NCBI RefSeq assembly: GCF_003667225.1
Contig: NZ_RCOM01000007.1
Location: 1 to 58,163, forward strand
Direction: 5' to 3'
Origin: Kocuria rhizophila
GTDB taxonomy: Bacteria > Actinomycetota > Actinomycetes > Actinomycetales > Micrococcaceae
DNA: 58,163 nt
Below, one piece after another: positions 7,312 to 43,430 of this stretch. The notes below the pieces were generated by a model. That model was not told the DNA's origin and did not search any database. It saw only the letters and a program-made list of their open reading frames with translations. Within the stretch, counting starts at the first letter, position 1. The number at the start of each line of letters is the position of its first letter. Made by a program: the position numbers and the translations under genes.

Positions 7312-8157
7312 TCAAGCCGCTCGGTCCGAGCGCCGCGGATCGTGGGTGTCGGAGGATCCCGTGACGCGGCGGGCCGTGGAGCCGTGCGCCTCGGTGGGAA
7401 CCGCCGCCCGGGTCGCGGCACGGCGCGAGTCTGGTGCCTCGAGGGACACGCCCACCTGCTGCCACGAGAAGCCGTACGCCAGGGCGGGGACCACCTTGTT
7501 GGCCACGGCGGTTCCCACCATCACCCCGGCCCAGGCCACCGGCAGGGCGGCCAGGACGTCGAGGGGGTAGTGGGCCCCCGAGTACACGCGGGCGGCACCG
7601 ACCACGGCCACTCCGAGGGTGCCCCACAGCAGCACGTTGCGCCGGGTCCGCCGGCGCGCGGCCACGAAACCGAGGGCGAGGACGATGGCGACCAGGGCAC
7701 CCGTGTGGGACGAGGGGAAGGATGTGGATCCCGCAACCACTTCCAGTGGATCGCCGGACACCGCCGGCCGGGGACGTTCCACGAGCACTTTCACGAGCCC
7801 CACCGCGCCCCAGCCCGCGAGCGCGGTGATGGCGAACCCCGTGGCGTCGAGGGGGCGGCGTCGGATCACGGCCAGCCAGCCGATGACGGCCGCGATGATG
7901 AGAACCACCCCGCCGTTGGACAGCGTGAACTGCACCAGGGTGGCGATGCCGTCCAGAAGGACGTTGCGATGCTGGGAGAGCCCCTCGAGCAACGCGGTCT
8001 CCCCGTCGGTCACCTGCGGTGAGAGCACCAGCAGACGACCGATTGTCGCTGTCAGCAGCACCACGACCAGAGGAACGGCCACGCGGTGACGCAACTGCGG
8101 CAAGTGCCACGGGGACCCGCCCGGCGAGGGGGAAGTGTACTGCGCCGGATTGGTCAT
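7312..8157 (-). CDS. PAP2-family membrane phosphatase
   Basis: About 281 residues; integral membrane type-2 phosphatidic acid phosphatase-like enzyme. The three family motifs are present in order: KVLVERPRP (K-x6-R-P), PSSHTG (P-S-G/S-H) and the RVYSGAHYPLDV block (S/A-R-x5-H-x3-D). Such enzymes hydrolyse lipid phosphates such as phosphatidic acid or undecaprenyl pyrophosphate on the outer face of the membrane. About five or six hydrophobic segments surround the motifs. I chose the ATG at 8157 (MTNPAQYTS); the open frame extends upstream to 8241 but that part is Arg/Thr-rich and unlike the family. The last ~50 residues are a charged cytoplasmic-type tail. Confidence 0.88.
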   Translation of the reverse strand: MTNPAQYTSPSPGGSPWHLPQLRHRVAVPLVVVLLTATIGRLLVLSPQVTDGETALLEGLSQHRNVLLDGIATLVQFTLSNGGVVLIIAAVIGWLAVIRRRPLDATGFAITALAGWGAVGLVKVLVERPRPAVSGDPLEVVAGSTSFPSSHTGALVAIVLALGFVAARRRTRRNVLLWGTLGVAVVGAARVYSGAHYPLDVLAALPVAWAGVMVGTAVANKVVPALAYGFSWQQVGVSLEAPDSRRAATRAAVPTEAHGSTARRVTGSSDTHDPRRSDRAA

Positions 8158-8233
8158 ACAGCAATGGTGACACGAGACACCGTGTGAATCCTGGTGTCGG
8201 CGTGTCGTGCTCCGCGTGGCGCCAGCAGACGCT

Positions 8234-8249
8234 CGTTTCACGTGAAACA
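8234..8249. other. parS: parS centromere site (distal, left)
   Basis: GTTTCACGTGAAAC at 8235-8248 matches the near-universal ParB binding palindrome TGTTTCACGTGAAACA except for C at the first base. It lies in the divergent intergenic region between the PAP2 and ROK genes, about 27 kb from dnaA and well separated from the other five sites. Confidence 0.92.
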
Positions 8250-39885: not shown

Positions 39886-40938
39886 ATGACCACCCCGGAG
39901 CACGACCCGCAGGCCGTGAAACGCGGACACGATTTCGGGTTGCCGCCCGATCCCGCTAATCAGTCCAAAAAGGTTGTCCCGGATCGCGGCAAGCATGTTT
40001 CACGTGAAACAGACGCTCACGCCGGTCTTGCAGCACAGGATGCGGTGGCTGATACCGCTCTGGGGAGGAAACTCGTGGAAGAGAACAAGCGTCGCGCCAA
40101 GCTCAAGAACGTCCACTTGGAGCATCCGAAGAACACTCGCTTCATCACCATCAGCAACCAGAAGGGCGGCGTGGGCAAGACCAGCACGTCCGTGAACCTG
40201 GCGGTGGCGCTGGCCCAGCAGGGTCAGCACGTGCTGGTGGTCGACAACGACCCCCAGGGCAATGCCTCCACTGCCCTCGGCATTCCCCACGGAGCGGATG
40301 CGGACTCGGTGTACGACATCCTCATCGACGAGGTGCCCGTGGCGGACGTGGTCAAGGAGTCTCGCGAGATGGAGAACCTGTGGGTACTCCCCGCCACGAT
40401 CGACCTCGCGGGCGCGGAGATCGAGCTGGTGTCCGTGGTGGCTCGCGAGCAGCGTCTGCAACGAGCTCTCGCGGAGTACGCGGAGTCACGCGAGCAGAAC
40501 GGTTTGCCGCGGCTGGACTACGTGTTCATCGACTGCCCCCCGAGCCTGGGTCTGCTGACCATCAACGCGTTCGTGGCGGCCACGGAGGTGCTGATCCCCA
40601 TCCAGTGCGAGTACTACGCTCTGGAGGGACTGAGCCAGCTCCTCAACAACATCAAGATGATCCAGAAGCACCTCAACCCCCAGCTCACGGTTTCCTCCAT
40701 TCTGCTGACCATGTACGACGGCAGGACCAACCTGGCGTCGCAGGTGGCAGACGAAGTGCGTCAGCACTTCCCGGACGAGGTGATGGAGACGATGATCCCG
40801 CGATCTGTGCGGATCTCGGAAGCACCCAGCTATCAGCAGAGTGTCATCACCTACGACCCGAGCTCCACAGGCGCGCTCTCCTATCTTGAAGCGGCGGCTG
40901 AACTGGCCGCGCGGGAGCCTGGCACTTCCCAGAGATGA
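39886..40938 (+). CDS. parA: Chromosome-partitioning ATPase ParA
   Basis: 350 residues. The deviant Walker A KGGVGKT is at 93-99, with the ParA Walker A' and B (VLVVDNDPQGN, YVFIDCPPSLG). An N-terminal ~85-residue extension precedes the ATPase; within it residues 37-42 (HVSRET) are encoded by a parS site. It moves ParB-parS complexes on the nucleoid and, in actinobacteria, interacts with polar proteins. GAAAGGGA precedes the ATG. Confidence 0.98.
   Translation: MTTPEHDPQAVKRGHDFGLPPDPANQSKKVVPDRGKHVSRETDAHAGLAAQDAVADTALGRKLVEENKRRAKLKNVHLEHPKNTRFITISNQKGGVGKTSTSVNLAVALAQQGQHVLVVDNDPQGNASTALGIPHGADADSVYDILIDEVPVADVVKESREMENLWVLPATIDLAGAEIELVSVVAREQRLQRALAEYAESREQNGLPRLDYVFIDCPPSLGLLTINAFVAATEVLIPIQCEYYALEGLSQLLNNIKMIQKHLNPQLTVSSILLTMYDGRTNLASQVADEVRQHFPDEVMETMIPRSVRISEAPSYQQSVITYDPSSTGALSYLEAAAELAAREPGTSQR
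39996..40011. other. parS: parS site within parA
   Basis: TGTTTCACGTGAAACA, the full 16-bp consensus, lies in the coding sequence of the ParA N-terminal extension (encoding VSRET). Confidence 0.97.
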
Positions 40939-41057: not shown

Positions 41058-41095
41058 GGATGCCCCGATGTTTCACGTGAAACATTGGGGCATCC
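41058..41095. terminator. parS: parS embedded in a 38-bp palindrome (terminator-like)
   Basis: The 16-bp parS TGTTTCACGTGAAACA (41069-41084) is the exact centre of a 38-bp inverted repeat (GGATGCCCC arm) with a single G-U mismatch. It lies between parA and parB. In RNA it would fold into a 19-bp hairpin, so one sequence could act both as ParB site and as transcription terminator. Confidence 0.88.
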
Positions 41096-41234
41096 TGCTG
41101 TTCGCAGTGGGGGATGTCGAGCGACGCCGTGACTGATTCGGGACGCCCCAGGACATGGCGGGGAATGCTTCCGTCAACGCGTGGGGCGAACCCCACCACG
41201 ACTACGATGGACAGCACATCATCGGTGAAAGGAC

Positions 41235-43352
41235 ATGAACGTGGTCGAACGACGTCGGGGGCTTGGGCGAGGTCTTGGTGCCCTCATCCCCAGTGGAGAA
41301 CCGGAGACTCAACGCAAAGCTGCGGGGAGCCAAAACGAGGCCACCGATGAGCCCAGCAAGCCGGAAAGCGGTCGACGACGTCAGCGAACCGGCTCGGTCG
41401 GCGGCGCAGAGGCATCCAAGACATCCGGGAACTCGAAGAACGCGGCCTCGACCGGCAAGGCGCCCAAAACCGGAACGGCAGGCAAGGGCGCGCCTTCATC
41501 GAAGCGAACGACGACAAGCGACAAGGCGACCTCCCGTTCTTCCGGGACTGACGCGGTTAAGAAGGCCGGGTCTGGAGCCAAGAAGTCCACGACGGCCACG
41601 GCAGTGGAGGCGCGCAGTGCTGCGGGGGCCGAGGAGATGGACAAGAGCACGAGGACGACGGCCGGCAAGGCGTCCTCGGACGGCGCAAAGACCGTGGGGG
41701 CCAGGAAGTCCTCCAATGGTGGTGCCGGTGCCGGCGCCGCAGCCGTCGGCACGGGGAGTGAGCGGAAGAACGCGGTCAGCCCCGAAGGCCCAGGCGCACA
41801 TGCTGATGTCGAGCAGTCCGCTACGCCCAGTGACCGCGCGGCAGAAACCACGCAGGACTCCGCAAGGCATGACAGCTCAGGCCGGAAGGACCACGAACGG
41901 GATAGCGATGTTTCACGTGAAACATCCAGTGCAGCCGCGTCCCGGCCGGGCGGTCGTTCCAAGGACTCGACAGGTCGACCAGCTCAACGCCGTCGCGACA
42001 TGGGGCAGGCACTGCGAAGCACAACGAATGTGAGCCGGCCCGTGGACATGTTCTTCCTGCCGTCCGATCCAGACTCCTTCTCCGATGCCCCGTCCAGCCC
42101 TGTGGGCACGTCGGGAGTGACGCCGGACGGTGACGGGGACACTTGGCGAGCAACGCACCGCGAAGGTGCGTCGAGTGTCTCGGAGACATCCACGCCGACT
42201 TCCGGGCGCGATTCCTCCATGGCGCCCGAGCCCACTACGTCTCCTGCGGACGACCAGAAAAACCGTACCGATGTGGCTTCCAAACAGGACAGTTCCACCG
42301 GGACGAGCGATGTTTCACGTGAAACATCCGCCGCGAAGGGCTCTGACACCTCGGGGTCACAGGGCATTGGAGAAGATGCCACGGTGGAAGGCGCGCGGAC
42401 CCGAGACGAAGACACTTCTCCGCTGGCCGAGAGCTCTCCGGAGACTGCGCCCGATTCAAGCGCAGGTATGCCCACGGATGATGCAGGCACCACCGAAGTG
42501 AACGATAACGGCGGCGACCTGCGAGTCGTTCCGGGTGCTGCCTTCGCCGAGTTGGCGGTGACGGACATCCACCCCAACCGCAAGCAGCCACGGCAGGTGT
42601 TCGACGAGGACGAGCTGGCGGAGCTGGCCTTCTCGGTGAAGGAACTTGGGGTTCTCCAGCCCATCGTCGTGCGTCCCAGCCGCGACGGAGGTCCGGAAGC
42701 CTATGAGCTGGTCATGGGTGAGCGCCGTTGGCGGGCGGTTCAGGCTGCTGGGATGAGCACCATCCCCGCGATCGTCCGGGAAACGGCCGATGACGAATTG
42801 CTCCGGGATGCACTGCTGGAGAACCTGCACCGCGCCCAGCTGAATCCCCTGGAAGAGGCGGCCGCGTACCAGCAGCTGATGGAAGAATTCGGTGCCACTC
42901 AGGAGCAGCTGTCGGAGCGCATCGGGCGGTCCCGCCCGCAGATCTCAAACACGTTGCGACTGCTGCGTCTTCCTGCACTGGTGCAGCGACGTGTGGCGGC
43001 CGGTGTACTGAGTTCCGGTCACGCTCGCGCTCTGTTGGCGCTGCCGGATCCCGCGGAGATGGAACGTCTGGCTCAGCGCATTGTGGCGGAAGGTCTGTCC
43101 GTGCGCGCGACGGAGGAAGCGGTGGCGCTCTCCGACGGCCTCAAGCGCCAGTCCACCAGGCGCAAGGCACCGAGCACGCGACACGACGACCGTCTGGGCT
43201 ACATCGCTGATGCCTTCTCGGACAAGCTCGACACCAGCGTGAAGATTCAGCTGGGCGCTCGTAAGGGCAAGATGACCATCGAGTTCGCGTCGGTGGAGGA
43301 CCTGAACCGCATCATCGACGTTCTGGACCCCAAGCTCGATTCGGAGAGCTGA
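41235..43352 (+). CDS. parB: Chromosome-partitioning protein ParB with giant linker
   Basis: 705 residues, about twice the usual length. [13 protein letters not shown] (7-19) is the N-terminal peptide that stimulates ParA. Residues about 25-430 are low-complexity Ser/Thr/Ala/Lys/Asp-rich, basic first and more acidic later, and probably disordered. The core follows: [15 protein letters not shown] (about 443), the CTP-binding GERRWRA (495-501), the helix-turn-helix (about 552-580, [21 protein letters not shown]) and the C-terminal dimerisation domain. Two parS sites lie within the linker. ParB spreads from parS and loads SMC. The ATG at 41235 follows GAAAGGA. Confidence 0.96.
41909..41924. other. 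parS: parS site 1 within parB linker
   Basis: TGTTTCACGTGAAACA; encodes ParB residues 225-230 (DVSRET). Confidence 0.97.
42311..42326. other. parS: parS site 2 within parB linker
   Basis: TGTTTCACGTGAAACA; encodes ParB residues 359-364 (DVSRET), about 400 bases from the previous site. Confidence 0.97.
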
Positions 43353-43384: not shown

Positions 43385-43430
43385 CACAGAAGGCCCTGAT
43401 GTTTCACGTGAAACATCGGGGCCTTCTGTG
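43385..43430. terminator. parS: parS embedded in a 46-bp palindrome (bidirectional terminator)
   Basis: The parS TGTTTCACGTGAAACA (43400-43415) is centred in a 46-bp inverted repeat with one G-U mismatch (arms CACAGAAGGCCC / GGGCCTTCTGTG). It lies between the convergent parB and cwlM-like genes, where a bidirectional terminator is expected. Same design as the parA-parB copy but with different outer arms. Confidence 0.9.

Follow-up and report, generated by a model that had tools for sequence, protein, structure and literature searches.

In-frame parS sites in the long, predicted disordered linker of ParB in Kocuria

The window analyzed here, a stretch of 58,163 nucleotides from Kocuria rhizophila, carries adjoining parA and parB genes and six 16-bp matches to parS (three or fewer mismatches), against 0.06 expected from 100 shuffles. 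Because the genome as a whole has 6 core matches and the window also 6, the sites in the window should be all of them. The outlying site, about 32 kb from parA, overlaps the first codons of a minus-strand open reading frame (ORF) at 7312-8241. The features are as follows.

8234-8249: parS with one mismatch at its edge and an exact core
39886-40938, plus strand: parA, adjoining parB, with an N-terminal tail ahead of its P-loop domain
39996-40011: exact parS in the N-terminal tail of parA, reading KHVSRETD
41069-41084: exact parS between parA and parB
41228-41233, plus strand: AAAGGA, resembling a Shine-Dalgarno sequence and placed 7 bases upstream of the GTG at 41241
41235, plus strand: alternative parB start, an ATG 6 bases upstream of the GTG, giving 705 aa
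41241-43352, plus strand: parB, encoding 703 aa when read from the conserved GTG
41241-41294, plus strand: N-terminal ParA-contact peptide with GLGxG motif, from the motif and conservation of the start
41295-42530, plus strand: predicted disordered linker, residues 19-430 of the 703-aa protein, from composition, AlphaFold and dN/dS
41909-41924: first exact parS in the linker, reading DVSRETS in frame
41997-42065, with 42036-42056, plus strand: conserved RPxDxFF region of the linker, from alignment, regular expression, dN/dS and genome pattern
42311-42326: second exact parS in the linker, reading DVSRETS in frame
42531-43349, plus strand: CTPase (ParB_N), helix-turn-helix (HTH) and dimerisation domains, from Pfam and AlphaFold
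43400-43415: exact parS just after parB

ParB is encoded by a single uninterrupted open frame (41235-43352, plus strand), the true start of which is likely the GTG at 41241 on comparative grounds: among 27 Kocuria ParB, 21 have GTG and 6 have ATG at the equivalent position, a purine-rich Shine-Dalgarno-like stretch precedes it in 27/27 (by eye), and the ATG equivalent to 41235 is found in just 2/27. In the 705-aa version, Pfam places ParB_N at residues 437-532 (E 6.6e-34), HTH_ParB at 535-631 (E 1.9e-35) and ParB_C, the C-terminal dimerisation domain (PF23552), at 660-697 (E 1.1e-7), the last also matched by 5noc_A (E 3.1e-4), and the arginine patch GERRWRA (493-499) occupies invariant columns of a 69-row alignment. 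The protein thus resembles chromosomal ParB/Spo0J (Class Ia, CTPase clamp) in having ParB_N, HTH_ParB, ParB_C and the GLGxG peptide, given as the ParA-contact motif of ParB in passages of PMC12207404, and the locus further resembles such systems in the adjacency of parA and the presence of parS in the par region. By analogy with the family, we predict that this ParB binds CTP, closes as a clamp and spreads from parS. It differs in its 412-residue linker, its RPxDxFF motif and its two in-frame parS sites. A plasmid origin was rejected, the best plasmid match having 61% identity over 37% of the query and covering the domains only.

The N-terminal region is reported to vary between ParB proteins (PMC9298525). 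The original prediction placed an insert of ~405 residues at 41307-42525, which is right to within a few residues (41295-42530, 412 residues). The linker of about 412 residues between the GLGxG peptide and the CTPase domain makes the window ParB the longest in this respect among 224 distinct ParB. Linker length, counted between the last residue of the GLGRGLG match and a point 58 residues ahead of the GERR motif, has a median of 315 in Kocuria (range 221-421, n=27), 156 in the other members of its family, f1 (51-353, n=94, including a few named Rothia-like records added by hand), and 61 in the other Actinomycetes sampled (13-161, n=103). These ParB derive from 256 loci with 227 distinct ORFs, less three without a recognised peptide, one of which (L192) was left out solely because its peptide reads ALGRGLG; loci L257-L268 enter no count. 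An earlier, narrower set comprised 187 loci, 8 without a ParB ORF, giving 152 distinct ORFs and 151 with a linker. Searches of the family and of the class matched 253/255 and 146/148 genomes, respectively, and DNA was covered for part of these (L029-L107 and L188-L256). Comparison with related genera bears out the unusual length, 412 residues against a median of 61 in other Actinomycetes, but not the idea of an insert, as 27/27 Kocuria ParB have linkers of 221-421 residues. Judged from these sequences, the Kocuria linker is an expansion of a family-wide, length-variable linker rather than an insert private to one protein. Tandem repeats were considered as its source and discarded, since the window linker contains merely arrays of period 6-7 totalling 19 bases.

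Disorder had been anticipated for this region, and prediction agrees. AlphaFold confidence (pLDDT, per 10-residue block) is 31-50 over residues 1-430 and 74-94 over residues 431-630, with neither helix nor strand before residue 430; as the underlying alignment had 69 sequences, the low values are consistent with disorder but are not proof of it. The linker is hydrophilic (mean scaled hydropathy 0.377, Uversky index -0.115), with 27.7% Ser+Thr and 4 aromatic residues in 412, and its C-terminal part is net acidic in 27/27 Kocuria while the N-terminal part is near neutral. It is thus predicted to be intrinsically disordered. A folded element was sought and rejected, no helix or strand being modeled even in the RPxDxFF region, where block means are 49 (residues 251-270), although pLDDT of at least 50, seen at few places in the linker, occurs at residues 255-259 and 266-273.

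The linker is taken to be translated, given its conserved start and dN/dS below 1. Across 11 Kocuria pairs picked by hand, the linker part that precedes the central motif gave dN/dS of 0.31-0.71 (11/11 pairs), the part that follows it 0.36-0.90 (10/11 pairs computable), the motif itself 0-0.20 (9/11 computable) and the ParB domains 0.02-0.13 (10 pairs computable); the linker values are rough because many pairwise dS exceed 1. The closest pair (dS ~0.25) gave 0.67 and 0.69 for the linker, that is, weak constraint. From these values the linker looks to be drifting fast yet in frame. A frameshift was contemplated in the original prediction; one open frame throughout and dN/dS below 1 led us to reject a frameshifted or untranslated linker.

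The same prediction had considered a start at about residue 420. Public entries instead use one near residue 254, and conservation argues against an internal start as the sole one. The corresponding alternative is that the N-terminal part is untranslated, or sometimes so, and that the main product is a protein of ~450 aa from the ATG at 42000 (residue 254) lacking the ParA peptide, perhaps as one of two isoforms. Among the matches listed (120 of 3724 homologues), the first 60 residues are devoid of a GLGRGL-type peptide in 51, of which 42 begin at the residue-254 methionine or a few residues before it; P0011, a protein of 450 aa that aligns with 64% of the query at 99% identity, begins at the equivalent of M254. 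Another 69 of the same 120 do carry the peptide, however, and the upstream start codon, Shine-Dalgarno-like stretch and peptide are kept in all 27 Kocuria with the frame open throughout. Further, dN/dS is below 1 upstream of the internal methionine in 11/11 pairs, and that methionine has no consistent Shine-Dalgarno sequence (in many rows of one clade AGAAGG lies just 2-3 bases ahead) and in one clade lies within the conserved stretch ARQKAMKARMDMGEALR, with conservation continuing upstream. We therefore regard this alternative as improbable. The internal start in database entries is, from the sequences, probably an annotation error, with perhaps a minor isoform arising from it, and many database Kocuria ParB entries lack the ParA-contact peptide, probably through a wrong start.

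The description of the linker as long and disordered stands but overlooked a conserved motif, RPxDxFF, which in much of Kocuria belongs to a longer DMGxALRxTTxxxRPxDMFFLPS. A regular expression found it in 157/224 linkers (124 strict, 33 relaxed) and not in the other 67, and the 69-row alignment, in which gapped rows may not count, lists its D, F and F as invariant. As a codon pattern it has one match per genome, at the parB linker, in 9/9 Kocuria tested; three other genomes of the order gave two matches in one and none in two. It is absent from 8/8 Nocardioides and 2/2 Corynebacterium named loci and from 10/10 ParB of family f21. In short-linker relatives the motif lies 17-20 residues in, near the N-terminal peptide, whereas in Kocuria it lies ~108-252 residues into the linker, a shift in position which implies that the linker expanded on both sides of it. 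The conservation suggests that RPxDxFF may bind a partner as a docking motif, and it is newly offered here as a conserved ParB motif. Two loci, L125 (titled Kocuria massiliensis) and L129 (Curtobacterium sp. S6), encode ParB with RPVDFFF as in Rothia records, which suggests that these titles are wrong names.

Both parS sites attributed to the linker by the original prediction are present as exact, in-frame copies. They are not private to the window ParB, as 116/224 ParB have at least one linker parS (16-mer, two or fewer mismatches): 27/27 in Kocuria, 65/94 in the rest of the family and 24/103 in other Actinomycetes. Their absence by the same measure from 29/94 and 79/103 ParB of the latter two groups indicates that a linker parS is not required. 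The linkers of the 224 ParB hold 183 such sites in 30,804 codons (5.9 per 1000), compared with 4 in 60,416 codons (0.07 per 1000) from the CTPase domain to the stop, though site counts are not independent events given the kinship of the rows. Every one of the 27 Kocuria linkers has at least two core parS (14-mer, one or fewer mismatches), with two to five per linker; one (L027) has a single site by the 16-mer measure, a value taken from an otherwise unused set built with a narrower pattern that missed ~35 loci. Together these linkers contain 71 of the 182 core parS found genome-wide (25-75% per genome), with per-genome counts for all 27 Kocuria genomes and individual positions for some; many of the genomes are drafts and two are less than 80% complete. 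About two fifths of core parS in Kocuria therefore lie within one disordered stretch.

The number of sites does not account for the length of the linker. Within Kocuria the two are uncorrelated (Spearman -0.24, p 0.22), which led us to reject growth driven simply by parS number and indicates that parS hosting alone does not explain the length; in the other two groups the correlation is weak (0.21 and 0.22), and an overall value of 0.64 over 151 ParB is mostly a between-group effect. At locus L017 (2338-2424) the linker contains a 30-bp repeat in 2.9 copies, the units of which hold parS or near-parS; by its sequence, this is parS multiplied through in-frame tandem duplication.

The original prediction emphasized that the sites read DVSRET in frame. 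That reading is correct, but what is conserved is the parS DNA and not the peptide. Among 157 exact VSRET peptides in linkers, the 14-mer core is perfect in 155 and off by one base in 2, none being freely synonymous in spelling; the window is 64-73% GC, whereas the parS codons are AT-rich. Over 162 linker sites, changes numbered 2 at the inner wobble positions (4, 7, 10, 13), 23 at the positions where a change alters the amino acid (3, 5, 12, 15), and 57 and 68 at the outermost positions 1 and 16, and the profile of change is similar for 547 parS outside linkers. On this spelling evidence, selection has kept linker parS at the level of DNA and not of peptide. The converse, a functional role for VSRET as a peptide motif with the match to parS coming second, could draw on the recurrence of the same five residues in ParB linkers and ParA tails. 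With 0/157 linker VSRET having more than one core mismatch, and 25 of 27 one-off peptides (VSRGT 9, VPRET 7, others) having a core with a single mismatch, we consider it very improbable; on this spelling, kept to the parS core, VSRET as a selected peptide was rejected. A literature search on VSRET returned nothing on ParB among the matches listed.

Selection on the DNA is accompanied by a nearly uniform reading phase, 182 of 183 linker parS being in the VSRET phase, although in-frame copies keep their phase and the rows share ancestry, so that 182:1 does not represent 183 independent choices. The other open phase would read FHVK and is not found in linkers at three or fewer mismatches. The third phase contains a stop (TGA); eight core sites (two or fewer mismatches) occur in it and the TGA is lost in each. 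Among the candidate sites of this phase, those in the linkers of L169, L174, L181, L182 and L189 are spelled GTTTCACGGGAAAC, with the stop removed, and those of Pseudokineococcus L161, L164 and L173 are spelled GTTCCACGTGGAAC. In-frame parS is likewise widespread in ParA tails among the sampled relatives, with 151 sites in the VSRET phase against 16 in the other open phase (189 parA ORFs), some of the 16 possibly preceding the true parA start. In other genes the VSRET bias is weaker and its strength uncertain, the counts being 11 VSRET against 3 FHVK outside parB and 10 against 4 outside parA and parB, since these sites are few and their phase was assigned by GC contrast.

These findings lead us to propose that Kocuria ParB has an expanded, translated and disordered N-terminal tether in which a protein job and a DNA job would share the same letters. 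As protein, the tether would be a flexible leash that sets the ParA-stimulating peptide at a distance from the CTPase clamp and also displays RPxDxFF; as DNA, it would be a landing strip for parS, nearly always in the VSRET phase. Almost any hydrophilic sequence would do for such a leash, so that some of the sites at which ParB loads on the chromosome could have settled there. ParB would then load as a CTP clamp on parS within its own gene and, as follows from the behavior of the family, spread over parAB. We think it fairly likely that the linker is a permissive disordered tether of this kind, hosting centromere DNA while presenting the ParA peptide and a docking motif as protein. The linker sites presumably are bound by ParB and contribute to segregation, and the leash may aid ParA capture.

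An alternative is that the linker serves mainly to drive condensates or as a kinase target, with the parS sites as passengers. Its Ser+Thr content and the net acidic C-terminal part seen throughout Kocuria would suit such a role, and ParB of Mycobacterium tuberculosis is phosphorylated by Ser/Thr kinases, according to PMC7022226. This composition is generic for disorder, however, and parS letters kept against synonymous change are not mere passengers, making this account unlikely. We similarly doubt that parS inside parB is there for autoregulation, with bound ParB hindering its own transcription. Sites do occur at several places in the locus, with one in the tail of parA, one between the two genes, two in the linker and one just past the end of parB, and PMC2346475 proposes a regulatory role for parS in the parA coding region of Mycobacterium bovis BCG. 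Yet clamp loading near oriC needs no regulation, and parB runs for 670 and 1070 bases before the two linker sites are reached, which puts them at a distance from any putative promoter just upstream of the gene.

A bolder form of the tether proposal is a self-hosting centromere, in which the linker DNA would be a main loading platform, tying clamp loading to ParA contact and to expression of parB within one locus, and RPxDxFF would be a previously unrecognised docking motif linking ParB of Micrococcales and some relatives to a partner. We offer this tentatively. In all 27 Kocuria genomes examined, the centromere and its binding protein are written in the same letters, which opens to testing the idea that disordered protein regions provide room for cis-acting DNA.

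Sites for parS within par genes have precedent. In B. subtilis a parS lies within spo0J. As a control, the B. subtilis genome as a whole was matched in our survey. Literature searches on parS within spo0J and on ParB of Arthrobacter or Micrococcus yielded nothing relevant among the matches listed. The parS that M. bovis BCG carries within the coding sequence of parA (PMC2346475) has the same placement in a par gene; Kocuria differs in that a single disordered linker contains two to five core sites, a quarter to three quarters of those in the genome. Disorder in a ParB family protein also has a parallel in KorB of plasmid RK2, which has disordered regions according to PMC5577506; KorB is a plasmid repressor as well as a partition protein and is likened to Kocuria ParB on disorder alone. 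No account of a long ParB linker holding parS was found in a literature search that most subscription journals lay outside, nor is one described in the available portions of PMC7022226, PMC12207404, PMC9298525, PMC5002424, PMC4255298, PMC2346475 and PMC8242196, among which the review PMC4255298 has nothing in those portions on linker parS in Kocuria.

The closest likenesses came from our own sample. Families f21 (genus g55; Streptomyces-like, at a guess) and f22 (perhaps Micromonosporaceae-like, again a guess) have one parS in the linker, read in the VSRET phase, in 9/10 ParB and 9/9 distinct ParB, respectively, and a PVDVFFP-like motif akin to the Kocuria RPxDxFF is present in 6/9 ParB of f22. 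Both families differ from Kocuria in having linkers of 47-87 aa with one site, and f21 also in having RPxDxFF in 0/10 linkers. Several f21 loci (L228, L229, L242 and others) have a distinct conserved segment, ERGVAAAKV-like, before the in-frame parS.
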